From the IMG/VR virus record IMGVR_UViG_3300001533_002237, positions 1-64,000 of that record: a stretch of DNA of 64,000 bases; one strand, 5' to 3'. The first letter of the stretch is position 1; the number at the start of each line of letters is the position of its first letter. The notes under the pieces were generated by a model. It made no database searches, was not told the DNA's origin, and saw nothing but the letters and a program-made list of their open reading frames with translations. Both the position numbers and the translations under genes were made by a program. Positions 7,857-57,689 of this stretch are shown here, one piece after another. The stretch is from a virus.

Positions 7857-7865
7857 AGTATTTAT
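7857..7865 (+). promoter_or_regulatory. Putative phage late promoter (AGTATTTAT)
   Basis: AGTATTTAT lies 16 bases before the ATG at 7882. It is the first of a family of near-identical elements before genes throughout the window. Confidence 0.6.
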
Positions 7866-13876: not shown

Positions 13877-13899
13877 ACGATGCTTTTCGTAGACATATT

Positions 13900-13908
13900 A
13901 GTATTTAT
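13900..13908 (+). promoter_or_regulatory. Putative phage late promoter (AGTATTTAT)
   Basis: AGTATTTAT lies 14 bases before the ATG of the LAGLIDADG endonuclease gene at 13923. Confidence 0.55.
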
Positions 13909-13922
13909 TATTAAATATTAAT

Positions 13923-17240: not shown

Positions 17241-17263
17241 AAATAATATAAAATTTAATTATT

Positions 17264-17770: not shown

Positions 17771-17776
17771 TATGAA

Positions 17777-18361
17777 ATGAAAAGATTAACTGTATTTGAT
17801 TTTGATGCTACCTTAATAAACACATTTTCTCCTGAAGAAGGTAAACCTATGTGGGAAAAATTTTATGGAAAACCTTATCCTCATAAAGGATGGTGGGGTC
17901 GTAAAGAAAGTTTAGATACTAATGTGTTTGACATCAAACCATTTCCAAATATATTATCTATTCTTAGAAAAGACATGGCTGACCCCGATACAACGACAAT
18001 AATATTAACTTCTCGTTTGGAAAAATTACGTCCAGAACTTGAAAATATTTTAAAGTTAAATAATATTAATGTTGATGAATTAATCACAAAAAAAGGTCGA
18101 GAAGATAAAGGTGATATTATATTAAAAATTTAAAAATATAATGATGATTTAGAAGAAATTGTTGTTTATGATGATTTCGCTGATAAACAACCAAATAAAA
18201 TTGTTGAATATACTAAAATTAAAGATTTATTACCTGATAATATTCAATATAATATTTTTTATGTTAAAAATGATAAAATTAGTTTATTAGAAAGAGTTTC
18301 ATTTGACTCAACAAATAAATTATTGGAGATAATTCAAGAAGAAATCATAAATTTTAAATAA
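17777..18361 (+). pseudogene. HAD-family phosphatase (RNA-repair-like) with an in-frame stop
   Basis: The frame begins with HAD motif I, VFDFDATL (D8, D10). Motif II is IILTSR and a Lys-containing segment follows (KKGREDKGD). A TAA at 18131-18133 (codon 119) interrupts it. The same frame then continues as KYNDDLEEIVVYDDFADKQPNKIVEY to TAA at 18359-18361. The DD of VYDDFAD is HAD motif IV, needed for magnesium binding, so the truncated product should be inactive. The motif I region resembles the Swiss-Army-Knife RNA-repair HAD group. Intact length would be about 194 residues. A TTA-to-TAA change would explain the stop; readthrough or a base-call error are alternatives. Confidence 0.75.
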
Positions 18362-18362
18362 G

Positions 18363-18371
18363 AGTATTTAT
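18363..18371 (+). promoter_or_regulatory. Putative phage late promoter (AGTATTTAT)
   Basis: AGTATTTAT lies 14 bases before the ATG of the DUF723-type endonuclease at 18386 and one base after the restored HAD stop codon. Confidence 0.55.
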
Positions 18372-18385
18372 AATAAATTTTAATA

Positions 18386-19126
18386 ATGCCAAAAAAACTA
18401 ACAAAAGAAGAATTTATTGTAAAAGCCAAGAAAGTTCATGGTAATAAATTTAATTATGATTTAGTTGAATATCTTAATAATAAAACTAAAGTAAAAATTG
18501 TTTGTCCATTACACGGTGAATTTTTACAAAAACCGAATGACCATTTAAGTGGATATGGTTGTAGGAAATGTCAATATGAAAAAACATCTAAAATAAATAA
18601 ATTTACTACTGAAGATTTTATTAATAACGCAATTAAAATACATGGTAATAGATATATTTATTCAATTGTTGAATATAATGGGTATGAAAATAAAGTGAAT
18701 ATTATTTGTAATAAACATGGTAAGTTTAAACAATCATCACACTCTCATTTAAGTGGTGCTGGTTGTCCGTCATGTAAAGAATCTCGTGGTGAGAAACGAA
18801 TTACAGAATTTTTATTAAAAAATAATATTAATTATCAAAAACAAGTATCATTTGATGGATTAATTGGTGATAAATCTTCATTATTTTTTGATTTTTACCT
18901 TCCAGAGTATGAAATGATGATTGAGTTCGATGGAATACAACATACTAAACCAATTAAATTTTTTGGTGGAATGAAAAAACTATTAAAACAAAAAGAATAT
19001 GATAGAAAAAAAATTGATTTTGTTGTTAGAAATGGATATAAATTATTAAAACTAACATATAATATGTTTTCATATCTTGAAGAAGCATTAGAGTGTGAAT
19101 TAAAAAATAATAAAATATTATGTTAA
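18386..19126 (+). CDS. Homing endonuclease with two DUF723-like zinc modules and a Vsr/EDxHD-type nuclease domain
   Basis: Residues 1-125 contain two similar DNA-binding modules, each with the pattern F...A...HG-x-Y...V-x-I-x-C...HG-F...H-L-x-G-x-G-C-x-x-C, as in DUF723-type proteins. Residues 130-246 are a nuclease domain with FFDFYLPEYEMMIEFDGIQH, a Vsr/EDxHD-like PD-(D/E)XK active site. This arrangement is typical of free-standing phage homing endonucleases. It sits between the HAD gene and the ParB-like gene and overlaps the latter by 7 bases (ATGTTAA). A late-type promoter precedes it. The enzyme appears intact; its target site is unknown. Confidence 0.85.
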   Translation: MPKKLTKEEFIVKAKKVHGNKFNYDLVEYLNNKTKVKIVCPLHGEFLQKPNDHLSGYGCRKCQYEKTSKINKFTTEDFINNAIKIHGNRYIYSIVEYNGYENKVNIICNKHGKFKQSSHSHLSGAGCPSCKESRGEKRITEFLLKNNINYQKQVSFDGLIGDKSSLFFDFYLPEYEMMIEFDGIQHTKPIKFFGGMKKLLKQKEYDRKKIDFVVRNGYKLLKLTYNMFSYLEEALECELKNNKILC

Positions 19127-19947
19127 AAAATGGAAGACCATATCATTTACCTCAATTAAATATGGATTACTCTATTGTATTAGAGAAACTAGGTAATGAA
19201 AATATTAATTATAATATAATTGAATTATCACCAAGTGAAAATGATGAAATCAAACCATCACAAGTAATAGTGTATTCAGATGAGATTTCTGGGGTTATTC
19301 TTGATGATAATAAACCTATTTGGATTAGTTCTGATAATCATATTTGTGATGGTCATCATCGATATTTTAAATCAATGTTTGATAAAATATCAATTAAATG
19401 TGTTAAAATTAATTTGAATCATAAAGATGCTTGTAGAATATTAAATAAAATACAAGATATTTATGATTATGAACAATCACAAGGTTTAGAAGAAGTTCAG
19501 GTTCAAGATACAATTAATTTTTATGGTGATGATGAAAATCAATTTCTAAATTCATTAGAAGAAGATAATATTGCAATTCAATCGGAAAGCGAAACACCAA
19601 TAAAAAATCAAAAAACTTTAATTGGTTATAGACAATCGCCAATTAAAGAAAATTCAGTTATTGGTAATTTTTTTACATTAAAACCAGTTGAAGGTTATGA
19701 TAAATATGAAATTGAATTTAATAACTTAATGGATACTAATAGTCTGGGTGTTACATATAAAGATGGTCAAGACCCAATTGATATTTTAGCAAAAAGTTGG
19801 TTTCCAAATATTAATTTTGAAAAATTAAGTACTAAACATAATACAACACCAATTAATTTAAAAACTAAAGCAGTTGCTGAAAAAGCAATGAAGATGGGGT
19901 ATGATGGAATTAAATATGGTGATACAATAATTCAAGGATTAAAATAA
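19120..19947 (+). CDS. ParB/sulfiredoxin-like protein with a second, possibly ADP-ribosyltransferase-like domain
   Basis: Residues 1-115 resemble a ParB/sulfiredoxin-fold domain: KPSQVIVYSDE, then PIWISSDNHICDGHHRYFKS, where DGHHR matches the nucleotide-binding DGHHR/GERR motif. Residues 160-275 are separate. GYRQSP, GNFFTLKP and the end AEKAMKMGYDGIKYGD recall ADP-ribosyltransferase-type effector domains, but no clear ExE catalytic motif is visible, so this part is speculative. The start codon lies inside the stop of the homing endonuclease gene, so its original upstream region was probably displaced by that insertion. It is followed 6 bases later by a small basic protein gene. Confidence 0.6.
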   Translation: MLKNGRPYHLPQLNMDYSIVLEKLGNENINYNIIELSPSENDEIKPSQVIVYSDEISGVILDDNKPIWISSDNHICDGHHRYFKSMFDKISIKCVKINLNHKDACRILNKIQDIYDYEQSQGLEEVQVQDTINFYGDDENQFLNSLEEDNIAIQSESETPIKNQKTLIGYRQSPIKENSVIGNFFTLKPVEGYDKYEIEFNNLMDTNSLGVTYKDGQDPIDILAKSWFPNINFEKLSTKHNTTPINLKTKAVAEKAMKMGYDGIKYGDTIIQGLK

Positions 19948-19953
19948 TAATTT

Positions 19954-20424
19954 ATGAAAACATATAAAATAACAAATACAACAAATCTTGTTGGTAGACG
20001 TGATTCTAAATATAATACAATTGTAAATATTGAATATATTGATAATCGAATTAAGAAAAATACTAAATTAAAAGCAGGTGATACAGTATTTTTAACAGTA
20101 GAATCACTACCGTTATCAATACATAGGTTAAGAATTAAAAATTTAATTACAGTTACTGAAATAAGTGCTACTGAACTTGCCGAAAAAATGGAAAAAACAA
20201 ACCCAAAAGCAAGTAAAAACAAACTAAAAACAACAAAAAAACCTAAAGCAGTAAAGAAACCAGTTATTATTGATAAAAATAATGAATATGATGAAGTCGA
20301 TACAAAAAAATCAAATACAAAATCAACAAGTAAATCAAGTACTAAATCAGGTACTAAGTCAAGTACTAAGTTAAGTAGTAAATCGACTACTAAATCAAGT
20401 AGTAGTGAAAAAGATGATGAATAA
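19954..20424 (+). CDS. Small basic protein with Ser/Thr/Lys-rich tail
   Basis: The 156-residue protein has a compact N-terminal part (residues 1-75, strands such as KAGDTVFLTVESLPLSIHRLR) and a linker rich in Lys and Pro. It ends in a low-complexity tail of repeated KSSTKSGTKSS-type units and an acidic end (SEKDDE). No family is recognised. A positively charged repetitive tail would suit nucleic-acid or membrane-surface contact, but that is inference. The gene is the last of its unit; a strong terminator follows at 20450. Confidence 0.6.
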   Translation: MKTYKITNTTNLVGRRDSKYNTIVNIEYIDNRIKKNTKLKAGDTVFLTVESLPLSIHRLRIKNLITVTEISATELAEKMEKTNPKASKNKLKTTKKPKAVKKPVIIDKNNEYDEVDTKKSNTKSTSKSSTKSGTKSSTKLSSKSTTKSSSSEKDDE

Positions 20425-20449
20425 TAAATAAAACAAATATATAAATTTT

Positions 20450-20477
20450 AAAGTCAACATTTTTGTTGACTTTTTTA
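20450..20477 (+). terminator. Intrinsic terminator
   Basis: AAGTCAAC (20451-20458) pairs with GTTGACTT (20465-20472) around a short T-rich loop, followed by TTTTT. It ends the unit containing the ParB-like and basic-tail proteins. Confidence 0.8.
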
Positions 20478-20565
20478 TTTATTAATTCAAGATTTCTTAT
20501 TAAATTTCGTATTAACTTATAAACAATAATAAATTACATTATTTTATAAAAATTTATAATCAAAT

Positions 20566-21945
20566 ATGGATGGAAAAATAAGAATCTTATTCTATAATTT
20601 AGATGGCGCAGGAGTAAACTATTTTAGAACACAAACACCAGCACAAGAACTGGAAAGAAATCATTCGGATGAATTTTATATTGAAATCAATCCACAATTA
20701 GATTTTAATGACCCTAACATAATTGATTATCTTAAATCATTTCATATAATTCATTATCATCGTCAATTTTTAAGTGATACGGCACAAATGTTGGGATTAG
20801 CTGATGAATTGAGAAAATCAGGAACAATATTAATTGTCGATATTGATGATTATTGGAAATTACATAAATTACATCCATATTATAGTCTTAGTCAAGAAAA
20901 ACAATTATTTATACCGATAATTGAGAATTTAAAAATTGCTGATTATGTGACAACAACAACTGATTTATTTGCATCTGAAATAAAGAAAATAACTGGTAAA
21001 GATAACATTGGTGTTTTTTATAATAGTGTTGACCCTACATGGATGAAACAATTTCAAAATAATTGGAAACCAGACCCAGATGGATTAGTTAGAATTACTT
21101 ATATGGCAGGTAGTTCTCATATGGTTGATGTTCAACAACTAGAAACAGTAATGAATGTTTTAGATGCTGACCCACAAACCAAAGGTAAATTTAAAATAAT
21201 TATTGCTGGTTGGGATACACAAGGAAGTACAACAGATATAACTTTTAATCAAGAATTTGCTGAAGAATTACAAAAAATAGGATTATGGACACAGGATGTA
21301 GTTAAGTCAATTAATAAAACCAGAGGTGATGTTGACCAAATACCACATATATCTCAAGAATTAAAAGATAAATATAGGGATAAAGTATTTAAATCAGAAC
21401 AACGTGATATTAAATCAGAAGAAAGTGTTTATTTAGTTTATGAAAAAATATTAACTGATAATCATAAAATAATTGATAATCCAGATTATCTTCAATGGTT
21501 AATGAATTTTGAAAGAGATGTTACTTATGAAAATGAAGGTAATTTTGGTAGACGTTGGACACAAAAAGCCAATACATATGCACAAGTATTAAATGAAACT
21601 GATATAGTTCTTGCTCCACTTGCTGATAATCAATTTAACAGAATGAAATCGAACTTAAAACAAGTTGAATGTTGGACACGTAAACTTCCAATTGTATGTT
21701 CAGATATTCCACCATATAATGTTCATGGTAGGCATATGGAAAACTGTGTATTAATTCCAGCAGAAAAAAATGCACATAAGTACTGGAAAAAATATTTAAA
21801 AAAATTAATACTTGATGCTGATTTAAGAAAACGACTTGGTGAGCAATTATATGAAGATTTTAAAATCGAATATAACTTAGCTGAAGTTACAAAAAAACGT
21901 ACTGAATTTTATGAATCAGTGGTATTAAATAACTTAAAAACATAA
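20566..21945 (+). CDS. Glycosyltransferase, GT-B fold (GT4-like)
   Basis: The 459-residue protein has the layout of a GT-B glycosyltransferase. The N-terminal Rossmann half contains IRILFYNLDGAGVNYFRTQTP, IIHYHRQF and ILIVDIDDYW, followed by TTTTDLFASEI and FYNSVDP at the domain link. The C-terminal half has ITYMAGSSHMVDV, FKIIIAGWD, IVLAPLADNQFNRMKSNLK and PIVCSDIPPYNVHG, matching the usual donor-binding EX7E-type region in form. Such enzymes transfer sugars to phage DNA bases, virion proteins or host surface glycans; the acceptor cannot be read. It starts a unit after a terminator, but no AGTATTTAT element was seen before it. Confidence 0.8.
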   Translation: MDGKIRILFYNLDGAGVNYFRTQTPAQELERNHSDEFYIEINPQLDFNDPNIIDYLKSFHIIHYHRQFLSDTAQMLGLADELRKSGTILIVDIDDYWKLHKLHPYYSLSQEKQLFIPIIENLKIADYVTTTTDLFASEIKKITGKDNIGVFYNSVDPTWMKQFQNNWKPDPDGLVRITYMAGSSHMVDVQQLETVMNVLDADPQTKGKFKIIIAGWDTQGSTTDITFNQEFAEELQKIGLWTQDVVKSINKTRGDVDQIPHISQELKDKYRDKVFKSEQRDIKSEESVYLVYEKILTDNHKIIDNPDYLQWLMNFERDVTYENEGNFGRRWTQKANTYAQVLNETDIVLAPLADNQFNRMKSNLKQVECWTRKLPIVCSDIPPYNVHGRHMENCVLIPAEKNAHKYWKKYLKKLILDADLRKRLGEQLYEDFKIEYNLAEVTKKRTEFYESVVLNNLKT

Positions 21946-21958
21946 TAATTTTATTTAT

Positions 21959-21967
21959 AGTATTTAT
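21959..21967 (+). promoter_or_regulatory. Putative phage late promoter (AGTATTTAT, overlapping TATAAATA)
   Basis: AGTATTTAT is followed immediately by TATAAATA at 21968-21975, which is identical to the T4 late-promoter element in sense orientation. The first in-frame ATG is at 21997. Confidence 0.55.
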
Positions 21968-21970
21968 TAT

Positions 21971-22036
21971 AAATAATTTTAATAAAAACATTGATTATGA
22001 AAAAAATAATTTTAATAAAAACATTGATTATGAAAA
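21971..22036 (+). repeat. 33-base tandem duplication
   Basis: Positions 21971-22003 are repeated exactly at 22004-22036. The unit contains an ATG followed by an A-run (ATGAAAAAAAT), so it duplicates the translation start of the following gene in frame. Confidence 0.9.
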
Positions 22037-22398
22037 AAATAAATGAAATTAGATAGTTTATCATAGATTTTTTAAAAAAGAGATTTATTCGTAAAGAATT
22101 AAAATTAAAGTTTGAAAATACAGAAATAATATTAAATAAAAAAAATACTGAAAGACTTAATTCATTAACTGATTCACTATTTCGTGCATCAAAAACAGCT
22201 AAAGTTGAAGCCTTTGAAGTTAAAAGGAAACGACTTGAAAAAGAAAATGAGATGTTATTTAATGACATAAAAAATGTTATTGATAAACATTATAAAAAGA
22301 GAGAAGAAAAGTTAAAAAAAGAAAATGAAAAACTTAAAAAAAAGATTGTTGAAAAAGATAAAACAATTAATGAAATCAATGAAAAATATCAAGAGTAA
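22030..22398 (+). pseudogene. Coiled-coil protein gene with an early stop or frameshift
   Basis: From ATG 22030 the frame reads MKKINEIR and then TAG at 22054-22056. The same frame is open from 22057 to TAA at 22396-22398 and encodes about 113 Lys/Glu-rich residues with heptad character (KKNTERLNSLTDSLF, EKLKKENEKLKKKIVEKDK). No ATG lies near the start of the open part. A second frame begins MKLDSLS at about 22043 and could join it if one base were inserted near 22062. It looks like a small coiled-coil protein of about 120 residues whose start has been damaged next to a 33-base tandem duplication. Function is not recognised. Confidence 0.5.
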
Positions 22399-22413
22399 TA
22401 TAAATAAAATATA

Positions 22414-23310
22414 ATGAAAAAATTATTTCAAAATATAATTCTTTGGTTTTATCTTAAATTACATTCAGTTTTGTTTGCAATCAGTATTGCATTATTTAAT
22501 ACTGAACAAGAGATTCTTAAAGCAAATCCTAATGATTTGGATGAAAAATCAAAAAAGAATCAAAGGATGCGTCATAGAAATCAATTACTTGAAAAGTTTT
22601 ATGCTGGTCAAACTGATAGAAAATATGTACGAGACTATTATGATGTTTTAAAAAAAGCAGATAAGTTTATTAGAACAGCAACTCCACACCAAATGGCAGT
22701 TGCTGCCGATAAGTATGGAACAAGTTATGGTATGAAAGATAAGTGGGGTAGAAGATATGAACACTATGGTTTTTTTGATGGTAAACATAAGCATGTTGGA
22801 AAAACACTTGGTGATGTATTGGTTTTAGAATTTGAAGAAAGACGTACTAAAGATGATGATTTAGAAATATTATATATTTTTAACAATAAACCAATTGAAG
22901 TTGGATTAGTTAAAGTTATGGATGTTGTTGAAGAAAATGAAAATGGTGAGTTAACAGTTCTTGATATGGAAAAAAAATCGAAACAATTCCAATTTCCAAT
23001 TAAAATTGTGCGAGAAAATGAAGCTATAAACAAGATTGAAGAACTTTCTGAATTTTTACATGTTAAAAAAATCGGTTTTGAGTACAGGCAATTAGAATTT
23101 TTTGTACCTTTGAAATTCAAAACATCTGAAATTGATGAAGAATCAGATATATTTAAAGACATAATCAATATTAAAGAAGTTCATTTATATGATGAATATG
23201 GTGAATTAATGAGTTTTGGTATTAATAATTTTAAGAAAAGAATAATTTATAACGACACACATGAAGTATTGAAATTCGAAGGAATTGAAATGCAAAGATT
23301 TGGGTCATAA
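22414..23310 (+). CDS. Unidentified protein with hydrophobic N-terminus
   Basis: The 298-residue product is not recognised. Residues 5-27 (FQNIILWFYLKLHSVLFAISIAL) are hydrophobic and could be a membrane anchor. They are followed by a basic segment (KKNQRMRHRNQLLEKF) and a repeated charged pattern. The C-terminal two thirds is mixed alpha/beta with a beta-rich block (LGDVLVLEFEERRTKDD, LEILYIFNN). There are no catalytic motifs. It lies 15 bases after the damaged coiled-coil gene and 11 bases before a helical protein gene, so the group from 22 to 24.3 kb is probably one transcript leading into the baseplate region. Confidence 0.6.
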   Translation: MKKLFQNIILWFYLKLHSVLFAISIALFNTEQEILKANPNDLDEKSKKNQRMRHRNQLLEKFYAGQTDRKYVRDYYDVLKKADKFIRTATPHQMAVAADKYGTSYGMKDKWGRRYEHYGFFDGKHKHVGKTLGDVLVLEFEERRTKDDDLEILYIFNNKPIEVGLVKVMDVVEENENGELTVLDMEKKSKQFQFPIKIVRENEAINKIEELSEFLHVKKIGFEYRQLEFFVPLKFKTSEIDEESDIFKDIINIKEVHLYDEYGELMSFGINNFKKRIIYNDTHEVLKFEGIEMQRFGS

Positions 23311-24344: not shown

Positions 24345-24353
24345 AGTATTTAT
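24345..24353 (+). promoter_or_regulatory. Putative phage late promoter for the baseplate operon (AGTATTTAT)
   Basis: AGTATTTAT lies 15 bases before the ATG of the gp25-like gene and directly after a terminator. Confidence 0.65.
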
Positions 24354-38272: not shown

Positions 38273-38281
38273 AGTATTTAT
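38273..38281 (+). promoter_or_regulatory. Putative phage late promoter (AGTATTTAT)
   Basis: AGTATTTAT lies 31 bases before the ATG at 38313, in the 94-base gap after the tail operon. Confidence 0.55.
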
Positions 38282-38312: not shown

Positions 38313-38516
38313 ATGAAAGAAATATTTACGCTCGATAAAATAAAACCAAAATCGGTTATTATTGATGGTAATTTACATAATAAATTTAAGATATTATGTA
38401 AAGGAAAAAGTTTGAAAATTGGTGGTGTTATTGAAGATTTAATTAATCTATATATTAACAATCCAAGAAGAATTCAAGAATTAATTGAAGAATTTAAAGA
38501 AAATAAATATAAATAA
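38313..38516 (+). CDS. Small ribbon-helix-helix-like protein
   Basis: The 67-residue product has one basic strand (KPKSVIIDGNLHNKFKILCKG) and two helices (LKIGGVIEDLINLYINNPRR, IQELIEEFKEN). This resembles a ribbon-helix-helix DNA-binding protein of the CopG/Arc size class, with strand residues pointing into the groove. It lies 3 bases before the RuvC-like gene and is probably co-transcribed. It could regulate transcription or guide the nuclease to DNA; both are inference. Confidence 0.5.
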   Translation: MKEIFTLDKIKPKSVIIDGNLHNKFKILCKGKSLKIGGVIEDLINLYINNPRRIQELIEEFKENKYK

Positions 38517-38519
38517 ATT

Positions 38520-39146
38520 ATGGAAAATTATATTTGGTCGTTAGATATCAGCACAACAAATATTGGAATGGCATTATGGGATAGTAATGGTAAACTAATT
38601 GAACTTAAACATCTTGAATTAAAAACAGATAAAAATACACCTGTTGAAAACAGAGACATTTATAAAGCTGAAGTTTTTAGAAAATATGTTTATGAGTATC
38701 AGAAAAGAGTGTTAGATGAATTAAATGGTGTTATTATTGAAACTATTGTTGAAGAACCTTTAGGTGGTAGTAATAATCAAAACACAGTATCATTATTATT
38801 TGGATTTAATGGTATGTGTAGATATATATTATATACGATATTTAACACATATCCAATAAAAATTAGTGTTTATGAATCACGTAAAATATTTTGTGATGAA
38901 TTAGTTAAGATTTCTAATACTAGAAACAGAAAAACAGGTGAAATTGAAAGAAAAGAAACATTATCATTTCCACCAGAATATCGGAAAGAAAAAAAATTGT
39001 ATATCTGGAAAAAAGTTTGTAAATTAGAACCCCAAATTGAATGGTTTTATAAAAAAGATGGTAAACCTAAAGATATGTGCTATGACTTAAGTGACAGCTA
39101 TTGTGTAGGTTATGCTGGTCTAAAAAGTATGGGTATAATAAAATAA
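38520..39146 (+). CDS. RuvC-like Holliday-junction resolvase (RNase H fold)
   Basis: The 208-residue protein has a RuvC-type RNase H fold. The first strand is IWSLDISTTNIGMALWD with D9, the second acid is in IIETIVEEPLGG, and the last acids are in CYDLSDSYCVGYAGL. The four carboxylates are spaced as in RuvC/phage resolvases. A Lys/Glu-rich insertion (RNRKTGEIERKETL) lies before the last helix. Likely role: cutting branched DNA during recombination or packaging. It replaces the unrelated endonuclease VII of T4. Two homing endonuclease-like genes follow immediately. Confidence 0.8.
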   Translation: MENYIWSLDISTTNIGMALWDSNGKLIELKHLELKTDKNTPVENRDIYKAEVFRKYVYEYQKRVLDELNGVIIETIVEEPLGGSNNQNTVSLLFGFNGMCRYILYTIFNTYPIKISVYESRKIFCDELVKISNTRNRKTGEIERKETLSFPPEYRKEKKLYIWKKVCKLEPQIEWFYKKDGKPKDMCYDLSDSYCVGYAGLKSMGIIK

Positions 39147-39147
39147 T

Positions 39148-39555
39148 ATGGGAAAAAGAATTTATAATTTAGAATACTTCAAAAATTGGGCAATTTCTAA
39201 AGGTGAAAGAATAGTTACATATATTTTAACTACAAATTGTATTCAATTTGAAAGACAGAAAAAATTTAATGATTGTCTTGGGAAAAAACAAAAACTATTA
39301 TTTGATTTTTATTTGCCAGAACATAACATTTTAATTGAATATGATGGTGAACAACATTTTAAACCTAAATCATTTTATCGTTGTTCAATTGAAACAGCAA
39401 AAAAATCGTTTAATGAATTAAAAAGAAACGACATAATAAAAAATGAGTATTGTAAGAAAAATAATATTACTTTAATTAGAATTCCATATACAATAAAAAA
39501 TATTAACAAGTATTTGTTGAATAAATTAAATGGTATAATGGAATTAGTTTATTAG
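39148..39555 (+). CDS. Vsr/EDxHD-type endonuclease (probable homing enzyme, no DNA-binding modules)
   Basis: The 135-residue protein is a compact nuclease: LLFDFYLPEHNILIEYDGEQHF gives the D...ExDxxQH active site of Vsr/DUF559-like phage endonucleases. A basic C-terminus (NNITLIRIPYTIKNINKYLL) completes the fold. The related protein at 18386 has the same nuclease core plus zinc modules, so this may be a short or trimmed homing endonuclease. It starts 1 base after the RuvC-like stop and ends 1 base before a GIY-YIG gene. Confidence 0.75.
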   Translation: MGKRIYNLEYFKNWAISKGERIVTYILTTNCIQFERQKKFNDCLGKKQKLLFDFYLPEHNILIEYDGEQHFKPKSFYRCSIETAKKSFNELKRNDIIKNEYCKKNNITLIRIPYTIKNINKYLLNKLNGIMELVY

Positions 39556-39556
39556 A

Positions 39557-39865
39557 ATGAAATACGTATATTTAATTCAATCATTAGAAAATAGTTACTA
39601 TAAAATTGGTGTATCTAAACATCCAAAGAAGAGGATTAAAGAACTTCAAACAGGAAATTCATCAGAATTAAAATTAGTTGAATCATATGAATTTGAACAT
39701 GCACACATGATAGAGAAGACATTTCATAATAAACTTATTTATTTAAAAAAAGAAGGTGAATGGTTTAATTTATCATTAATTAATGAACTAAATTTTATTG
39801 ATGAGTGTAAGAAAATTGAAAATAATATCATTTTATTGAAAGAAAATGGCAATGTATTTATGTAA
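39557..39865 (+). CDS. GIY-YIG endonuclease-like protein (T5orf172/MUG113 type)
   Basis: The 102-residue protein is a small GIY-YIG domain: YVYLIQSLENSYYKIGVSKHPKKRIKELQTG at the start, with the Tyr-Lys-Ile-Gly form of the second motif, and HAHMIEKTFHNKL with the catalytic Glu helix. Such stand-alone domains (T5orf172/MUG113) are widespread in phages. It is adjacent to the Vsr-like nuclease, and the pair probably moved in together or one after the other. Target is unknown. Confidence 0.75.
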   Translation: MKYVYLIQSLENSYYKIGVSKHPKKRIKELQTGNSSELKLVESYEFEHAHMIEKTFHNKLIYLKKEGEWFNLSLINELNFIDECKKIENNIILLKENGNVFM

Positions 39866-39869
39866 ACTC

Positions 39870-39900
39870 TTGTATATTTGATATATTTACCATATTTTTG
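39870..39900 (+). promoter_or_regulatory. Bacteroidota-type promoter for the phosphoesterase gene
   Basis: TTG (39870-39872), 20 bases, then TATTTTTG (39893-39900) match the host consensus. A second TATATTTG at 39873-39880 lacks a well-placed upstream element. The start codon is 38 bases downstream. Confidence 0.55.
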
Positions 39901-39938
39901 ATAAATATATTAAAATTATTTTATTTAAAGATAAAAAT

Positions 39939-41459
39939 ATGACAAAAAAACGAAGTAATAATATGCAAAAAAGAATTGATAAAGCCATTGAGATTATCAA
40001 TTATGGTATTGAAAATAAATTATCGGCAAGAGAAGCAAGTGTTAAGTGTGGATATTCCAATACATATGTTAAGAACATAAAAGCAATGGTTTATCAGAAA
40101 TTTAATGAAGGTGAATTAGAAATTAATCTTTATAATAAATTTGTTAATGCATATACTAAATATTCTCAGAATAAAACGTTTACAAATCAATATCAAAAAA
40201 CTGAAGAAAAAAAGGATAATTACTCACAACCAAATAAAGAAAAAAATATTAATTATTCTGAACCAAATAAACCCAAAGATTTACCAAAAGTTGGTGATCG
40301 TGAAAGTTTTAAAGAAAAAGGTAATGAAGCAGAATATGAGTGGGTTGGTGGTAACAGTTATCCAGATGACCATGTAAAAACATTAGACGAATTACTTGCA
40401 GCATGTAAGGTTAATTCTGATGTATGGAAAGTAAAGGATTTTTTAATTAATAAATGGGATGTTACGAGTTGGAAACGTCATTATCCTGAAACAATTCAAA
40501 ACTGGCAAGTTAAAGCACGTCTTGAACGTGATATTAAATTAGTTAAAGAAAAAATTGCTGGTGAAGTATTTCAAGAAATGACAAAAAATTATATTCCACC
40601 AACATTATATATGGATTGGGAAAGAAATAATATTGGCGGTGATGAAAAAAATTTACTTGAAATTTCAATATTTGATTTACATATTGGTAAATTGGCGTGG
40701 GGTGGTGAAACTTTTGAAAATTATGACGTTAAAATCGCACGTAAAAGATTTTTAACTTCAATACAAAAACTTCTTAAAGGTGCTAATGGTTTTAATTTTG
40801 ATAGAATATTATTTCCTGTTGGAAATGATTTTTTCAATAGTGATACTATGGAAAATACAACAACTAAAGGAATTCCACAAGATGAAGACCTTAGATGGCA
40901 AAAAACATTTGATGTCGGTGTACGATTACTAATTGATGCAATAAATTTATTAAAACAAACAGGTGTTCCTGTAGATGTGGTTGTTATACCGGGTAATCAT
41001 GATTTTGAACGTAGTTATTACATGGGTAAGTATTTAGAGGCTTGGTTTAATACTGATAGGTTGGTTTCAATTAATAACGGAGCATCACCAAGAAAATATT
41101 ATCGTTATGGGAATTTATTACTTGGACTTACACATGGAAGTGAAGAAAAAGAAGCATCATTACCATTAATAATGGCAACTGATATAGAATCTAAGCCAAT
41201 GTGGAGTGAAACAAAATTCCATGAATGGCATTTAGGACATATTCATAGAAAAAGGACTGTGCAATATGATATAAATAAATCAAGACTTTTAAATGAAGAC
41301 TTAGGTGTTACAATTAGGTACTTATCAAGTTTAACAGGTACTGAAGAATGGCATCACAAAAAAGGATTTATTGGTTCAACAAAAGCAGCAGATGGGTTTT
41401 TGTGGAACTATGAATTTGGTTTAGTCGCCACATTAAATAGTAATATTATTTTGGATTAG
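39939..41459 (+). CDS. Calcineurin-like metallophosphoesterase with N-terminal helix-turn-helix
   Basis: The 506-residue protein has a C-terminal metallophosphoesterase domain from about residue 240: ISIFDLHIGKL (DxH), FPVGNDFFNSD, VVIPGNHDFERSY, GLTHGSEEKE and WHLGHIHRK (GHxH). These are the standard ligands of this superfamily, with Asn in the usual GDxxD place. Residues 1-60 include a helix-turn-helix (LSAREASVKCGYSNTYVKNI), and residues 60-130 are disordered and polar. Similar proteins occur widely in phages without known roles. It has a host-type promoter, which suggests early or middle expression. Confidence 0.8.
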   Translation: MTKKRSNNMQKRIDKAIEIINYGIENKLSAREASVKCGYSNTYVKNIKAMVYQKFNEGELEINLYNKFVNAYTKYSQNKTFTNQYQKTEEKKDNYSQPNKEKNINYSEPNKPKDLPKVGDRESFKEKGNEAEYEWVGGNSYPDDHVKTLDELLAACKVNSDVWKVKDFLINKWDVTSWKRHYPETIQNWQVKARLERDIKLVKEKIAGEVFQEMTKNYIPPTLYMDWERNNIGGDEKNLLEISIFDLHIGKLAWGGETFENYDVKIARKRFLTSIQKLLKGANGFNFDRILFPVGNDFFNSDTMENTTTKGIPQDEDLRWQKTFDVGVRLLIDAINLLKQTGVPVDVVVIPGNHDFERSYYMGKYLEAWFNTDRLVSINNGASPRKYYRYGNLLLGLTHGSEEKEASLPLIMATDIESKPMWSETKFHEWHLGHIHRKRTVQYDINKSRLLNEDLGVTIRYLSSLTGTEEWHHKKGFIGSTKAADGFLWNYEFGLVATLNSNIILD

Positions 41460-41555
41460 ATGTGATTTTTAATACAAATAAATTAATTTATGGTTAGACT
41501 GTGGATGAAATTATAAATAATAATAGAAAAATAAAAAATTTAATATTAGAATAAT

Positions 41556-42071
41556 ATGGCAAAAAAAGACATTATTAATTTAGCGAAAGGTAAGAAACCC
41601 GCTACAAAAAGGAAACTTACTGCAAAAAATAAAACTACAGCAGAGAAAAAAGTTGAAACTACTTTAACTCCTGAACAAGAAAGAGATTTAAAAGCGAAGG
41701 CAAAAGTTCAAGAATTACTTGAAGATTCATCAATCAATAAACTTACAAAAAAAGATGATTTAATTGAAATAGCTGAAACACCTGAAGAATCTGATAAACC
41801 AAAAGGTATTGAATGGCTTGAAGAACAAGTAATATTATTAAGAGATAAAAATGAAAAACTTCAATTAGAATTAATTGAAGAAAAAGAGAAAAATAATGAT
41901 GATGTTGTAAAAAAGAGTGTTATTGAATTATTTAATGAATTACAAGAAAATCATATTAAATTAGGTGTAGATAGTCAAGGAATTGGTAATTTTAGAATTT
42001 ATTGTCCCGGATTTCTTAATCGCATGATAAAATTCTTTCCGTTTTTAAAAGAAATTAAAAGATATAATTAA
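41556..42071 (+). CDS. Unidentified basic/coiled-coil protein
   Basis: The 171-residue product is not recognised. Residues 1-40 are strongly basic (LAKGKKPATKRKLTAKNKTT). A helical region follows with a likely coiled coil (WLEEQVILLRDKNEKLQLELIEEKEKN), and the C-terminus is compact (QGIGNFRIYCPGFLNRMIKF). The basic start resembles nucleic-acid-binding tails. It follows a 96-base gap after the phosphoesterase gene and has no clear promoter. A homing endonuclease remnant follows immediately. Confidence 0.6.
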   Translation: MAKKDIINLAKGKKPATKRKLTAKNKTTAEKKVETTLTPEQERDLKAKAKVQELLEDSSINKLTKKDDLIEIAETPEESDKPKGIEWLEEQVILLRDKNEKLQLELIEEKEKNNDDVVKKSVIELFNELQENHIKLGVDSQGIGNFRIYCPGFLNRMIKFFPFLKEIKRYN

Positions 42072-42081
42072 TTTAAAATAA

Positions 42082-42402
42082 TATTGGACTAAAGAAAAAT
42101 GTAATATAGAAGCATTAAAATATAATTCAAGAAGCGAATTTTATTATAAAAATAATAAAATATATGCAGCAGCACAAAGATATGGATGGTTAGATGAGAT
42201 ATGCCAACATATGATACCGAAAATTCATTATTGGACTATCAATGAAATAAAAATAATTGCATTTAAATATAAATCAAGAAATGAATTTCAATTAAAAAAT
42301 AAGGCTGCATATGTTTGGGCAATAAGACATAATATTTTAGATGAAGTATGTTCACACATGCCCTCTATGTTAAGGAATAACCAATATAATAAATTTATAT
42401 GA
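42082..42402 (+). pseudogene. Remnant of a homing endonuclease: two WTKExC repeat modules
   Basis: The open frame starts right after a stop and has no ATG until 42211. It encodes two copies of a 45-residue module: YWTKEKCNIEALKYNSRSEF...GWLDEICQHM and HYWTINEIKIIAFKYKSRNEF...ILDEVCSHM. The same module occurs four times in the GIY-YIG protein at 50158. The nuclease domain is missing, so this is a truncated remnant. It lies between the basic coiled-coil gene and the primase gene, with a 4-base ATGA overlap into the primase. It may still give a 63-residue peptide from ATG 42211. Confidence 0.7.
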
Positions 42403-43484
42403 AAAATGTTATAGGTCAAGAATTTCATTCAATAATTGAAAATATTTTTAAAGATGTTAAGGGATTAAACGTATCGGAACAACTTCAAGTAAATTGTCCT
42501 CGTTGTCAAGAACGTGAGGGACTTTTATACCCAGATGGTAAATATAATCTTGAAATTAATACTAAACGCAAAATATTTTCATGTTGGAAATGTGATGAAC
42601 CTAAATTTAGTGGTTCATTAGGTAGACTTATTCGAACATTTGGTACTAGTATTGATTATGAACTATATAAATCATATGCTGGAATTTTTCATGATTATGA
42701 TTTTAATGAAGATGAAAAAGAATTTCTTCAAGTAAAATTACCTGAAGAAATGATTTATTTTTCACAAATGGACATTAATAATCCAGACCATTTTAAAGCC
42801 TATAATTATTTAGTTAATGAAAGAAAAATAAACCGAGATATTATTTTAAGATATCGACTTGGTTTTTGTACTACTGGAAAATATGCCAATAGAATAATAA
42901 TTCCATCATTTGATAAAAGTGGTGAAGTTAATTATTTTGTTGGTAGATATTATGGCGATGACCAAAAAACTAAGAAAAAATTACCTTATCTCAACCCTAA
43001 AGCCGATAAAAATACAATTATTTTTAATGAAGGTTTAATTAATTGGGATTCAACAGTTTATCTTGTTGAAGGTGTATTTGATATGCTTTCTTTTCCAGTA
43101 AATACAACACCTATGTTAGGGAAAACATTATCAACAATATTATTCATGAAATTGAAAGAATTAAAACCTAATGTTGTTATTTTATTAGACCCAGATGCTT
43201 ATAAAAATAGTGTTGAGTTATATTATATGTTAGAAACTATTTACATAGGATGTGAAGAAAGGGTTAAGTTAGTTAAACTTCCAACTAATGAAGATTTAGA
43301 TGAACTTAGAAAAAATCAAGGGATTGATGTTGTTATTAAGATTCTATATGGTGCAAGAGATTTAATTATAGATGATTACTTTATTCAAAAATTACAAAAA
43401 CCATATGAAAAAGGTGCAGGAAGATACGGAAATTATTCAAAATATTTTGAAGGGAAATCCAAAAGCACAAGAAATATTATATAA
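42399..43484 (+). CDS. DNA primase (DnaG/T4 gp61-like)
   Basis: The 361-residue protein has an N-terminal zinc ribbon (C33PRC36 and C62WKC65) followed by a primase core: DIILRYRLGFC, ANRIIIPSFDKSGEVNYFVGRYYG and LPYLNPKADKNTIIFNEG. The TOPRIM centre has VYLVEGVFDMLSF with the catalytic Glu and VVILLDPDAY with the DxD. Length fits a phage DnaG-type primase without a helicase domain. The 3' end overlaps the sigma-factor gene, which is unusual. Together with the polymerase and helicase it makes up the replication machinery of the phage. Confidence 0.88.
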   Translation: MKNVIGQEFHSIIENIFKDVKGLNVSEQLQVNCPRCQEREGLLYPDGKYNLEINTKRKIFSCWKCDEPKFSGSLGRLIRTFGTSIDYELYKSYAGIFHDYDFNEDEKEFLQVKLPEEMIYFSQMDINNPDHFKAYNYLVNERKINRDIILRYRLGFCTTGKYANRIIIPSFDKSGEVNYFVGRYYGDDQKTKKKLPYLNPKADKNTIIFNEGLINWDSTVYLVEGVFDMLSFPVNTTPMLGKTLSTILFMKLKELKPNVVILLDPDAYKNSVELYYMLETIYIGCEERVKLVKLPTNEDLDELRKNQGIDVVIKILYGARDLIIDDYFIQKLQKPYEKGAGRYGNYSKYFEGKSKSTRNII

Positions 43485-44031
43485 TAAATATAAAATTATT
43501 GTTAAAAACTTTATAAAAAGTAAATATTCTAATATTAATGATATTGATGATGATGTTTCAGAAATCATGATTAAAGTAATTATGAATTTAGAGTCATTTG
43601 ATGTTAATAAATCAAAATTTAAATCATGGGTTTTTAGTATAGCTAAAAATTATATGATTGATAAATGGAGAAATAATTCAATTACTTTAACTGGTAATAA
43701 TACTAATTGTGTAATTTCATATACTACTGGTGATTCGTATTATGATAATATTTCAACAAGTTACATAAATGCAACTAGTGATATGTTTACTAATTCAACA
43801 TCAATAAATAATACTGCTGATTATGATTTTGAAAATTGTAGTTCAATAAGTTATATTACTAATCAATTAACACCACAAGACTATACATTACTTAATATGA
43901 AATATATTCAAGGTTATAATTATAATGAAATTGGTTGTGAATTTAATCTTACAAGTTCTACTATTAGCAATAGAATAAATTATATTAAAACTAAATTAAA
44001 AAAAGATAATCCTGAAATAATATATGAATAA
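43372..44031 (+). CDS. ECF-like RNA polymerase sigma factor, overlapping the primase gene
   Basis: The protein (219 residues from ATG 43372, or 208 from ATG 43405) has sigma-70 regions 2 and 4. Region 2 runs through EILYNKYKIIVKNFIKSKY, DDVSEIMIKVIMNLESFD and FKSWVFSIAKNYMIDKWR. A polar Asn/Ser/Thr linker follows. Region 4 is LTPQDYTLLNMKYIQGYNYNEIGCEFNLTSSTISNRI, a clear helix-turn-helix. It shares 80-113 bases with the end of the primase gene in another frame. In T4 the late sigma gp55 has this role; here an ECF-like factor is the best candidate for reading the AGTATTTAT promoters. That pairing is inference. Confidence 0.8.
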   Translation: MITLFKNYKNHMKKVQEDTEIIQNILKGNPKAQEILYNKYKIIVKNFIKSKYSNINDIDDDVSEIMIKVIMNLESFDVNKSKFKSWVFSIAKNYMIDKWRNNSITLTGNNTNCVISYTTGDSYYDNISTSYINATSDMFTNSTSINNTADYDFENCSSISYITNQLTPQDYTLLNMKYIQGYNYNEIGCEFNLTSSTISNRINYIKTKLKKDNPEIIYE

Positions 44032-44059
44032 AAAAGGTGTCGATATAGACACCTTTTTT
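44030..44059 (+). terminator. Bidirectional intrinsic terminator
   Basis: GGTGTC (44036-44041) pairs with GACACC (44048-44053), flanked by AAAAA and TTTTTT, between the converging sigma-factor and small heat-shock genes. It can act in both directions. Confidence 0.85.
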
Positions 44060-44076
44060 GTTAAGAAAAATAAAAA

Positions 44077-44496
44077 TTAGTTAATTTTAATTGTCTTACT
44101 TAACTTCGTTTTTTCATTTTTTGGAATTTTTATTGAAAGAATTCCATCGCTGAACGAAGCATCTATTTTATCAGCGATTACGTTCTGTGGTAACGTAAAT
44201 GATTTCTTAAAATGACCATAAAAACTACCTTTACGATTGTATTTTATTTCTTCATCAGCAGTACGTTCACCTTCGATTGTTAATATATTATTATCAACAT
44301 CTAATTTAATGTTTTCTTTTTTAAATCCAGCTAAAGCATAATCAACAATATACTCATTATCTTTTTCAACAATATCATAGTCAGGAATAATTGTGTTAAC
44401 AGGAATATCAAGATTAAACATACTATCATCGAAGAAACTGTCAAAAAGATTTAATATTCCATTTTGAGGTTTTGAGTATTTCATTAATGTTGTCAT
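44077..44496 (-). CDS. hsp20: Small heat-shock protein (Hsp20/alpha-crystallin family)
   Basis: The 139-residue chaperone has the alpha-crystallin domain from about residue 40: PDYDIVEKDNEYIVDYALAGF, IKLDVDNNILTIEGER, GHFKKSFTLPQNV and ASFSDGILSIKIPK. The final motif ends with the IxI tail (IKI). Such proteins bind unfolding proteins; some cyanophages and other T4-like phages carry them. It is the only minus-strand gene in the first 61 kb. A terminator closes it at 44030-44059, and a large inverted repeat (44566-44604) lies upstream. Expression is probably separate from the surrounding late genes. Confidence 0.9.
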   Translation of the reverse strand: MTTLMKYSKPQNGILNLFDSFFDDSMFNLDIPVNTIIPDYDIVEKDNEYIVDYALAGFKKENIKLDVDNNILTIEGERTADEEIKYNRKGSFYGHFKKSFTLPQNVIADKIDASFSDGILSIKIPKNEKTKLSKTIKIN

Positions 44497-44613: not shown

Positions 44614-44622
44614 AGTATTTAT
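44614..44622 (+). promoter_or_regulatory. Putative phage late promoter (AGTATTTAT)
   Basis: AGTATTTAT lies 10 bases before the ATG at 44633 of the GIY-YIG gene. An upstream GTG (44609) would place the element inside the coding frame. Confidence 0.5.
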
Positions 44623-45421: not shown

Positions 45422-48400
45422 ATGAATATAAGAACAATATGTCATATGGCTGACATTCACATTCGTAAAACACCTACAAGAAATGATGAATATCAGGAAG
45501 TTTTTGATAGAACTATTGATTCAATTAGTAATAATAAACCAGACAGAATTGTAATTGTTGGTGACCTCGTTCACGACTACCTTGACCTTCAGGGTGAACA
45601 ATTAATAATGGCAAATGACTTTCTAAAGAAATTAGCTAAGATTGCTCCTGTTAGAATAACAAGGGGAAATCATGATTGTAGAAAGAAAAATTTAAAGCGT
45701 GTTGATAGCATTAAAGCAATAGTTAAAACTCTTGGTGATTATGATGTAATTTATTATGAAAAAACAGGGTTTTATACTGATGATAATATTATTTGGGTTA
45801 TCTGGCATCATGGTGAATCAAAAAATAATCCTTGGAAAACTAAAGAAGGTAAAAAGATTAATGCATATAAAACCGAAAGTGGCTTAACTACAGTTGATTT
45901 ATTTCATGACCCAATAACAGGTTGTATTTCTACAACAGATTTTGAAATGAAAAGTAAGTCTTATTATAAGATTAGTGATTTCAAAGGTGATATTTCGATG
46001 TTTGGTGATATTCATAGAATGCAATTTTTAGATAAGAAAAAAACTAAGGCATATTGTGGTTCATTAATAGCACAAAATATTAGTGAAGGTGATGATGCTT
46101 TTCATGGTTATTTATTATGGGATATTGAAAAACTAGAAGCAATACAAGTTCCGATTCATAATGACTATTCATATCATAATATTAAGATAACACCATATAC
46201 TGATTTTGAAGATTTAGATTTTGAAATTGATAACTCAACTAAATTTATGAGAATTAGATTTGTTTGGGCAACACTACCGCAAACAAGAACAAAGGAAAAT
46301 GAAAGAAAGGTTATTGAATATATTAAATCTAAATATAAAAATATAACTATTTCACATAAAAATGAATTTATTGAAAACGATAATGTTGATATTAATGAAA
46401 CGATTACATTAGAAAATGTAACTGATAAGGCTGTTCAACAAGAAATATTTAAAGAGTATTTGGAGAAGATTGGAACTGACGAACAACTAATTAAAGATAT
46501 CCTTGCTCTTGATGAAGAAATTCTTAAAGAAATTGATGTTTTTGATGAACAAAGTATTGAGTGGGACATTATAAAATTTGGTGGTAATAATTTTATGTCT
46601 TATGAAAAACTAGATATTGACTGGCGAGAATTAGATGGTTTATTTCAGATTACTGGTGAAAATACTGCTGGTAAGACTACTATAATGAAAATAATTACTT
46701 ATATATTATTTGGTAAAACACTTGAAACTGAAAATAGAGTTAAGTTCGGTGATAAACGTTTTGTAAATAATAGAAATAATGCCAGTTTTACTGATGCATA
46801 TTTGGTGCTTGAAGCCAATGGTGAATATTTTGGTATAAAAAAGAAAACTGAAATCAATAAAAATAAAAGTGGTGATATTATTGGTACACCAACAAGTCTT
46901 AGTTATTATATACTTGCAAGTCCTGATGATGAAATGAACGATGATTCTGCATTAGAAAAACTTGATGAAGACCATAGAATAAAAACTCAAAAGAAAATTA
47001 ATTCGATTATTGGTACGTATGATAATTTCATGCGAATTGTAATGACGACTTCCGATACACTTAATAAAATATTATCCAATGATATGGCAGATTTTATTGA
47101 TTCGTTATTATATGATAGTGGTCTCGATATTTTTGATAAAAAACTTGAAGGTCTTAAAACTTATCAAAAAAGAATTAATGAAAAACCAAAAATAGTATGT
47201 AATGTTGAAACAACAACAAATCAAAATACAATATTAAATCAAGAAATCAAAGTACTTCAAAATGAAATTATTGAAATTGAAGAAAACCGACTTCCTGATA
47301 TTAAAAAAAGAATTAGTACTGGTCGTGATTATATTGAAACACTAACAAAAAAATTATATCAAATAGACCCTGAAATATACAATTTAGACGTAGATATTGC
47401 ACGAGAAGATATAAGTGACAATCAAAAGAATATCGTTGAAATAAAGGCACGTAAAATGGTTTTACATCAAAGTATTAATAATTTAAAAGAAACTTATGAT
47501 GAAAATAGATTGAATGAGTTAATTGAAAAACGTGATAATCATAAACAACTAGTATATGATAAAAAATTAGAAATTAAATCACTAGAACGTCAAAAATCTG
47601 AATATGAACATAAAATTGAAGTAATTAATGGAAGTATTTTTATATTAAAAAAAGATGGTGGAAAATTAAAAGATGAAATAGTTGTTTTAAAAAACAGCAA
47701 AGTTTGTAGTCAGTGTGGACAAGTTATTGATAAAAAAGAACATCAAGACCATATAATTAAAATGGTTGGGTTAAAAGAAACTGAAATGTTTAATATCGTA
47801 AAAGAAATTAAAGAACATGAAAACGATATAAATGTTAATTGGAAGCCATTAATTAATAAATGTAACAAAGACATTACCAAAATTGATGAAGAAATTATTC
47901 AATTAGGACTTGATATGGAAGACATTTTAACTGAGATAGGTACTCTAACTAATGACCAAAATGATGTTAATAAATGCAAACAATTTCAATCTGAATTGGA
48001 TTTAATACCGACACGTATTCAAAATGAAGAACTAAAAATTAATATTTTAAAACAAAAGATTAATCAACATGAAAATAGTTTAAAACAAATTGAAGAAAAT
48101 AAGCGAATTGAAAAAGGAATTGTTGCAGCTAAAGAAAGAGTTGAAAGTCTTGTAATTGATGAAAATGATTATAAAGAAGATATTTTCATAAAAAAAACAA
48201 GTATTGGTGAAAAACAAATAAAAATAAAGGATAATGAAAAATTAGTTTCTGAATATAAAGTACAAGAATATCAAAATAATGTTATGAGTCTTTATAAAAA
48301 ATGTGTTCATCGTGATGGAATTCCGAGACAAATGTTAACAAATTATATTATACCAAAAATTAATGTTACATTAGAAAATATTTTAAGTGTTGCACAATTT

Positions 48401-48754
48401 AAAGTATGGCTTGATGTTGATGACCTTAGACCTAAATTAATATATAATGACAGACCAAATTCGATTATTGATTGTATTAGTGCAAGTGGTAAAGAAAGAA
48501 CATTTTCAAGTGTTGTTTTAAAATTTGCTTTAAATAAAGTTAATGTAAAAGCAAAACCGAATATTTTTTTATTAGATGAAGTAATGGGTAAATTAGATGA
48601 AAATAGTGTTGAAGAATTTATTGAAATATTATTATTAATTAAACAAAAAATGAAAAAAGTATTAGTAATTGAACACAGAACTAATATCGAACCAGATTAC
48701 TTAATTGATGTTAATGTTAATAATGAAGGAATATCAAGTTTAAGTATTGAATAA
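45422..48754 (+). CDS. Fused Mre11-Rad50 (T4 gp47-gp46 / SbcD-SbcC) recombination nuclease
   Basis: One 1110-residue chain combines both subunits. Residues 1-370 are the Mre11/SbcD/gp47 nuclease: HMADIHI, GDLVHD (D48), RGNHDC, WHHGE and FGDIHR. Residues 385-1110 are the Rad50/SbcC/gp46 ATPase: Walker A GENTAGKTT (412-420), two coiled-coil arms around a zinc hook CSQCG (C762, C765), signature SASGKERT (1020-1026), then LLDEVMGKLDE (Walker B and D-loop). In T4 these are separate genes 47 and 46. The complex processes DNA ends for recombination-dependent replication. A host-type promoter lies directly upstream, so early expression is likely. The fusion has no visible frameshift. Confidence 0.92.
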   Translation: MNIRTICHMADIHIRKTPTRNDEYQEVFDRTIDSISNNKPDRIVIVGDLVHDYLDLQGEQLIMANDFLKKLAKIAPVRITRGNHDCRKKNLKRVDSIKAIVKTLGDYDVIYYEKTGFYTDDNIIWVIWHHGESKNNPWKTKEGKKINAYKTESGLTTVDLFHDPITGCISTTDFEMKSKSYYKISDFKGDISMFGDIHRMQFLDKKKTKAYCGSLIAQNISEGDDAFHGYLLWDIEKLEAIQVPIHNDYSYHNIKITPYTDFEDLDFEIDNSTKFMRIRFVWATLPQTRTKENERKVIEYIKSKYKNITISHKNEFIENDNVDINETITLENVTDKAVQQEIFKEYLEKIGTDEQLIKDILALDEEILKEIDVFDEQSIEWDIIKFGGNNFMSYEKLDIDWRELDGLFQITGENTAGKTTIMKIITYILFGKTLETENRVKFGDKRFVNNRNNASFTDAYLVLEANGEYFGIKKKTEINKNKSGDIIGTPTSLSYYILASPDDEMNDDSALEKLDEDHRIKTQKKINSIIGTYDNFMRIVMTTSDTLNKILSNDMADFIDSLLYDSGLDIFDKKLEGLKTYQKRINEKPKIVCNVETTTNQNTILNQEIKVLQNEIIEIEENRLPDIKKRISTGRDYIETLTKKLYQIDPEIYNLDVDIAREDISDNQKNIVEIKARKMVLHQSINNLKETYDENRLNELIEKRDNHKQLVYDKKLEIKSLERQKSEYEHKIEVINGSIFILKKDGGKLKDEIVVLKNSKVCSQCGQVIDKKEHQDHIIKMVGLKETEMFNIVKEIKEHENDINVNWKPLINKCNKDITKIDEEIIQLGLDMEDILTEIGTLTNDQNDVNKCKQFQSELDLIPTRIQNEELKINILKQKINQHENSLKQIEENKRIEKGIVAAKERVESLVIDENDYKEDIFIKKTSIGEKQIKIKDNEKLVSEYKVQEYQNNVMSLYKKCVHRDGIPRQMLTNYIIPKINVTLENILSVAQFKVWLDVDDLRPKLIYNDRPNSIIDCISASGKERTFSSVVLKFALNKVNVKAKPNIFLLDEVMGKLDENSVEEFIEILLLIKQKMKKVLVIEHRTNIEPDYLIDVNVNNEGISSLSIE

Positions 48755-50134: not shown

Positions 50135-50143
50135 AGTATTTAT
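50135..50143 (+). promoter_or_regulatory. Putative phage late promoter (AGTATTTAT)
   Basis: AGTATTTAT lies 14 bases before the ATG of the GIY-YIG gene at 50158. Confidence 0.6.
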
Positions 50144-51939: not shown

Positions 51940-51948
51940 AGTATTTAT
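51940..51948 (+). promoter_or_regulatory. Putative phage late promoter (AGTATTTAT)
   Basis: AGTATTTAT lies 13 bases before the ATG at 51962. Confidence 0.6.
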
Positions 51949-53354: not shown

Positions 53355-53363
53355 AGTATTTAT
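53355..53363 (+). promoter_or_regulatory. Putative phage late promoter (AGTATTTAT)
   Basis: AGTATTTAT lies 20 bases before the ATG at 53384, after a terminator. Confidence 0.6.
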
Positions 53364-57680: not shown

Positions 57681-57689
57681 AGTATTTAT
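57681..57689 (+). promoter_or_regulatory. Putative phage late promoter (AGTATTTAT)
   Basis: AGTATTTAT lies 17 bases before the ATG of the amidase gene. Confidence 0.6.

Follow-up and report, generated by a model that had tools for sequence, protein, structure and literature searches.

Which promoters are read by a phage sigma factor whose gene begins inside the end of the primase gene? The question arises in a 64,000-nt stretch of viral DNA, referred to here as the window, which covers positions 1 to 64,000 of IMG/VR record IMGVR_UViG_3300001533_002237, itself a 94-kb fragment. The phage group is large and T4-like (gp20/gp23/gp25/gp6-type), and its host is probably a member of the Bacteroidota, given the host-type promoter described below, the absence of Shine-Dalgarno sequences, the sister phage Immutovirus with its Flavobacterium host, and a relative that lies in a Bacteroidota MAG. 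The initial annotation had paired the factor, here called sigma A, with the single-element late promoter AGTATTTAT. The reading favored here, at a probability of roughly 0.6, is that the host sigma would serve early promoters, sigma A a middle class of bipartite promoters, and a gp55-like sigma the AGTATTTAT late promoters. We infer the pairing of promoters with proteins from what occurs together, from the shape of the promoters, and from the domains of the proteins, and the timing is inferred as well.

A two-domain ECF-type sigma factor

The primase and sigma A genes lie in one transcription unit, with the following features.

42399..43484, + strand: DNA primase (PHROG 47, 8.2e-34), in one transcription unit with sigma A
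43405..43484, + strand: 80-nt out-of-frame overlap of primase and sigma A, kept in 13 of 14 relatives
43405..44031, + strand: sigma A, ECF-like sigma factor, 208 aa from a conserved ATG (43372 in the initial annotation)
43477..43677, + strand: sigma region 2 (Pfam Sigma70_r2; aa 36-102 in the numbering of the 219-aa frame)
43678..43863, + strand: variable Asn/Ser/Thr-rich linker (from the alignment; mostly <50 pLDDT in the predicted structure)
43864..44004, + strand: sigma region 4, the domain that reads the -35 (Pfam Sigma70_r4; alignment)
44031..44060, either strand: hairpin between A and T runs (aaaggtgtc gatata gacacctttttt), by direct reading

The stretch from 43405 to 44031 encodes a two-domain ECF-type sigma factor. 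The 219-aa open reading frame at 43372-44031 (+) matches Pfam Sigma70_r2 at aa 36-102 (1.7e-12) and Sigma70_r4 at aa 165-211 (1.4e-5), matches the sigma family PHROG 1740 at 2.5e-21, and passes the NCBIfam sigma70-ECF cut-off (71.7 vs 42.9 bits), all of which agrees with the ECF-like factor of two regions and an Asn/Ser/Thr linker that had been described. The nearest PDB sequences are SigW and sigma-E (1e-10), which are also the top Foldseek matches of the predicted model (E 2e-5 to 6e-4; mean pLDDT 67). Sigma A shares with these ECF factors of Bacillus and E. coli both the fold and the restriction to regions 2 and 4; in the 208-aa protein only the variable, low-complexity Asn/Ser/Thr linker lies between the two, and regions 1.1 and 3 are absent. 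It differs from them in being encoded by a phage, in the nesting of its gene in a primase gene, and in the unusual length of the linker. An alignment of 14 relatives shows regions 2 and 4 to be conserved and the linker variable, with region 4 intact and among the best conserved stretches in the family. The presence of region 4 also sets sigma A apart from T4 gp55, which has region 2 only, and a comparison of gp55 with the ECF sigma set by hhalign gave 0.8%. The nearest annotated phage proteins are the sigma-W annotations of crAss-like phages (cr53_1 and others; 24-26% identity over 89% of the query), which are a different lineage from the sigma A phage group. Sigma A is encoded in all 10 large family genomes examined.

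The start of the gene is probably the ATG at 43405, giving 208 aa, because this Met is kept in the relatives and several of them have no start codon upstream of it. The overlap with the primase gene is 80 nt from this start and 113 nt from 43372, so the 80-113 shared bases in another frame that had been reported hold for either start, and it measures 56-92 nt in 13 of the 14 relatives. The hairpin downstream is likely, as judged from its sequence, to be a two-way terminator that ends the primase/sigma A operon. A small heat-shock protein gene (Hsp20/Hsp18-like; 44077-44496, - strand) faces sigma A across this shared hairpin. Further on, 45422-48754 encodes an Mre11-like phosphoesterase and a Rad50/SbcC-like ATPase that are apparently fused into one protein of 1110 aa, unlike the separate gp47 and gp46 of T4, with a host-type promoter candidate at 45374.

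Promoter classes and the probable timing of sigma A

Enrichment of k-mers 5′ of 1075 gene starts, which, like every gene start used in the promoter statistics, were called with a simple ORF finder and not taken from annotation, yielded three classes: GTATTTAT, the pair TGTAACA/CGTATAA, and a host-like TATATTTG. The last matches the -7 element of the Bacteroidetes -33/-7 consensus, TTTG/TAnnTTTG (PMC6847099). A hairpin and a host-type promoter of this kind (TATATTTG with TTTG upstream) lie just 5′ of the primase ATG in 12 of 15 relatives, where the -7 element stops just short of the ATG. Since primase and sigma A follow a host-type promoter in these 12 relatives, sigma A looks like an early product, co-expressed with the primase. 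The window departs from its relatives here, as the spot has changed and the primase has no host-type promoter directly 5′. Upstream of the gene in the window are another late element at 39853 and the following two features.

39870..39902, + strand: host-type promoter candidate (TTG...TAnnTTTG), upstream of the gene block 39939-44031; a single consensus match, weak alone
38273..38281, + strand: AGTATTTAT late element, upstream of the gene block 38313-44031

A late element without a -35 partner

The element AGTATTTAT occurs 14 times in the window, 13 of them on the + strand, against an expectation of 3.5 on both strands, and none of 100 shuffles reached 14 copies. Across ten family genomes, 312 of 425 copies fall 8-80 nt 5′ of a gene start, where 19 would be expected. 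In the k-mer enrichment, GTATTTAT was found in 299 regions, the controls giving 27 and 38. In relatives, GTATTTAT stands 5′ of the terL, portal, sheath, tube, and baseplate genes. Sites in the window include the following.

7857..7865, + strand: AGTATTTAT, 5′ of gene 7882
13900..13908, + strand: AGTATTTAT, 5′ of endonuclease-like gene 13923
18363..18371, + strand: AGTATTTAT, 5′ of HNH endonuclease gene 18386
24345..24353, + strand: AGTATTTAT, directly after a terminator-like hairpin and 15 nt 5′ of the gp25-like baseplate gene 24369
44614..44622, + strand: AGTATTTAT, with a downstream ATG 10 nt after the element
50135..50143, + strand: AGTATTTAT, 5′ of GIY-YIG-like gene 50158
51940..51948, + strand: AGTATTTAT, 5′ of gene 51962
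53355..53363, + strand: AGTATTTAT, after a terminator-like hairpin and 5′ of gene 53384
57681..57689, + strand: AGTATTTAT, after a terminator-like hairpin and 5′ of endolysin-like gene 57707

For the gene that follows the site at 44614, translation probably begins at the ATG that lies 10 nt past the element, and the GTG at 44609 given by the ORF tool is likely wrong. The gp25-like gene was followed through 51 distinct orthologous loci, in almost all of which AGTATTTAT lies 12-23 nt before the ATG; it comes directly after a hairpin whose own sequence varies. Between -60 and -15, counted from the element, no position carries more than 0.08 bit, so that no -35 partner is seen in this range. Downstream, an A-rich patch is conserved at +12 to +14, i.e., 4-6 nt past the element, which fits a transcription start site. 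AGTATTTAT is best read as a late promoter made of a -10-like box only. This part of the initial annotation stands, as the element is over-represented, one-sided, found before late genes, and free of a -35 signal.

It is very improbable that AGTATTTAT is instead a translation-start signal or some other RNA element. Such a role is favored by its most frequent position, 14-17 nt before the ATG, and by the absence of Shine-Dalgarno sequences in Bacteroidota (PMC6847099), but the distances to the ATG reach 67 nt, the element directly follows terminator-like hairpins, and it heads transcription units and not each gene. In the Microcystis phage Mel-JY01, moreover, the TATTTATA core occurs alongside GGAG-type leaders. 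A second candidate was rejected. The T4 late promoter consensus is TATAAATA, and AGTATTTAT might be taken for a T4 late promoter read from the other strand (reverse complement ATAAATACT); however, the sites share the orientation of the gene that follows them, and TATTTATA outnumbers TATAAATA before genes by 354 to 107.

A bipartite promoter class of ECF shape

The promoter class with AAC in the -35 and CGT in the -10 is defined by its spacing: 140 TGTAAC...CGTATA pairs are 16 nt apart and 68 are 17 nt apart, compared with 19 over 54 other spacings. The preferred spacer differs by genome. It is 17 nt in G016 (52/55) and mostly so in G012 (35/44), and 16 nt in the remaining genomes with many copies; both lengths are present in G012 and G019. 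The window contains no such promoter, and its own 94-kb record has 8 copies of TGTAAC-N16-CGTAT at 64.9-85.3 kb. One bipartite promoter of that record (G000:79472, L028), outside the window, lies directly 5′ of a stretch that resembles the start of a tRNA gene. Some 17-nt pairs in G001, G016, G022, and G024 read TGTAACATTTTATATCTTTGCAACGTAT, which places a host-type -7 element within the bipartite spacer and gives the look of two superimposed promoters.

The pair has the promoter shape of ECF factors as it is known from SigW and related proteins, and TGTAAC-N16-CGTATA resembles the SigW consensus, TGAAAC-N16-CGTA. A literature search on TGTAAC with phage and ECF returned nothing related, and the class is a previously unsuspected one in this phage family.

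These observations bear on the proposal that AGTATTTAT, as a late promoter of one element, is the target of sigma A. The two do co-occur in the family, region 2 might in theory recognize a box of the -10 type, and there are extended -10 promoters that lack a -35. However, region 4 normally requires a -35 element, and AGTATTTAT offers the conserved region 4 of sigma A no such signal. A distinct class of ECF shape is present in the same family, and the late element remains AGTATTTAT where the bipartite spacer shifts from 16 to 17 nt. Together with the phages described in the next section, this makes the pairing of sigma A with AGTATTTAT improbable, and the initial annotation is not followed on this point. 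In the favored reading, the host sigma would read the early promoters, primase and sigma A being among the early genes; sigma A would then join the host core RNA polymerase and direct it to the middle class TGTAAC-N16/17-CGTATA, with TGTAAC recognized by region 4 and CGTATA by region 2. AGTATTTAT would form a late, -10-only class served by another sigma, a gp55-like region-2 factor whose gene lies at a different place in these genomes.

A gp55-like protein in phages with and without ECF factors

Iterated searches from gp55-like open reading frames led to a conserved 250-aa protein in the larger family genomes, with 242 relatives in viral contigs. Immutovirus, Mel-JY01, and LR756508, the first two from Flavobacterium and Microcystis, respectively, each encode a distant homologue. 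None of the three has a sigma70_r2 protein above the cut-off, and no TGTAAC-CGTAT pair at 16 or 17 nt was found in the scanned stretches, which for Mel-JY01 and LR756508 amounted to a part of each genome. Late boxes of the TATTTATA type nevertheless stand 5′ of late genes in Immutovirus and Mel-JY01: TATTTATA precedes genes in 24 of 42 cases in Immutovirus (2.0 expected, P 4e-21), and ATATTTAT does so in 14 of 47 in Mel-JY01 (1.6 expected, P 4e-10). LR756508 showed no clear late box. The presence of TATTTATA late elements in phages without a recognizable ECF sigma argues against sigma A as their reader, and this distribution, combined with the gp55 profile link, is what assigns TATTTATA to the gp55-like protein and TGTAAC-CGTATA to an ECF sigma in the favored reading.

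The profile link is a remote one. In hhalign comparisons, the homologues of the three sister phages matched T4-type gp55 at 86% (E 5e-6), or 92% when the small gp55-like open reading frames described below were added, while the full gp55-like set matched gp55 at 8% alone and 81% with these additions. The whole set also matched the ECF sigma set at 87% (4e-6), and reversed controls for the gp55-like comparisons stayed at or below 0.7%. A2 gave no match to T4 gp55 alone, a match requiring more gp55 sequences. Searches of PHROG, NCBIfam, and PDB sequences gave no significant match for the 250-aa protein, a fold search with its low-confidence model (pTM 0.42) returned no sigma, and phmmer with the Immutovirus protein found only itself among the loci compared. 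By profile comparison, the gp55-like protein is a candidate remote relative of gp55. At 22 of 24 loci, the 8 kb upstream of its gene contain neither a late nor a bipartite promoter, a pattern compatible with expression ahead of the late phase. A subset of these proteins carries an insertion of ~40-45 aa within region 2, just before the KAFSYCQ motif (G016:118404-119273 and G010:24088-24969; longer matches such as L301, L306, L310, L317, and L331).

A gp55 homologue elsewhere in the genome had been named as evidence against the pairing of sigma A with AGTATTTAT, and the outcome is divided. At the level of the family the remote homologue is present, and the window's own record holds a small gp55-related open reading frame outside the window (G000:78543-78947, L028; PHROG 234-like family); the 250-aa protein itself was not found in this 94-kb fragment. 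The small frame also occurs in G001, G009, and G010. It was considered as a universal late sigma (~110-134 aa) and rejected, since it was not found in G013 or G016, where the late element is still there. A search for a gp45 equivalent, which had also been suggested, came out negative for PHROG 223 in all 13 records, leaving room for a divergent clamp.

A second ECF-like factor

Most large relatives encode a second ECF-like sigma, sigma B. It may read part or all of the bipartite class, because it heads co-oriented arrays of these promoters, which it adjoins in G012, G013, G016, and G018. The arrays near sigma B precede small genes (L211-L212, G012 ~4633-23073; L136-L137, G013 ~186643-202269), and several of the G012 promoters there sit in inverted repeats such as aaccctatcattTGTAACatttgatagggttt. 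It is possible, though rather unlikely, that sigma B reads the bipartite promoters and that sigma A has a different target, either a share of the promoters that has the other spacer or a class not yet recognized. Besides the arrays, this is favored by the two spacers of G012 and G019, all 16-nt copies in G012 being near sigma B. Against it, sigma A is the factor present in every large genome examined, and the bipartite core is identical near and far from sigma B. In addition, five genomes in which sigma B was not found (G000, G005, G006, G010, and G017) keep 3-16 bipartite sites at 16 nt, although all five are fragments. The family genomes are metagenomic records and may each be incomplete, so that little weight rests on a missing sigma B, or on a missing gp55-like protein in the window's own record. 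The promoter class itself is observed, and of the two factors sigma A is its more probable reader. For the wider scheme, with the host sigma acting early, one or two ECF sigmas in the middle phase, and a divergent gp55-like protein late with no recognizable gp45 clamp, the odds are about even.

Relation to known systems

T4 late transcription offers the closest parallel to the late class: both use one -10-like box before the same late genes, and the family encodes a gp55-like region-2 protein by remote profile match. T4 late promoters likewise have no -35 conservation (PMC2988020; PMC7892883). Differences from T4 are that the family box is TATTTATA and not the T4 consensus, that the gp55-like protein exceeds gp55 in length and has diverged strongly, and that the gp45-type clamp was not found. 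In the sigma cascade of SPO1, gp28 is followed by gp33/gp34. Phage sigmas that redirect the host polymerase in time order, as proposed here, are common to SPO1 and to the group 2 jumbo phages, all of which have sigma factors in a review of these phages (PMC7824862). Unlike those cascades, the family described here combines a true ECF-type sigma and a large, recognizable ECF-shaped promoter set with a putative gp55-type late system.

A large uncultured phage group thereby gains a testable transcription program from its sequence, with a clean promoter set for each class. It becomes plausible that an ECF-type sigma can act as the middle sigma of a phage and serve many promoters, and the change from a 16-nt to a 17-nt spacer between genomes amounts to a natural experiment on the promoter spacing of ECF sigmas. 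The T4-like late element, in altered form, reaches phages of Bacteroidota and Microcystis.
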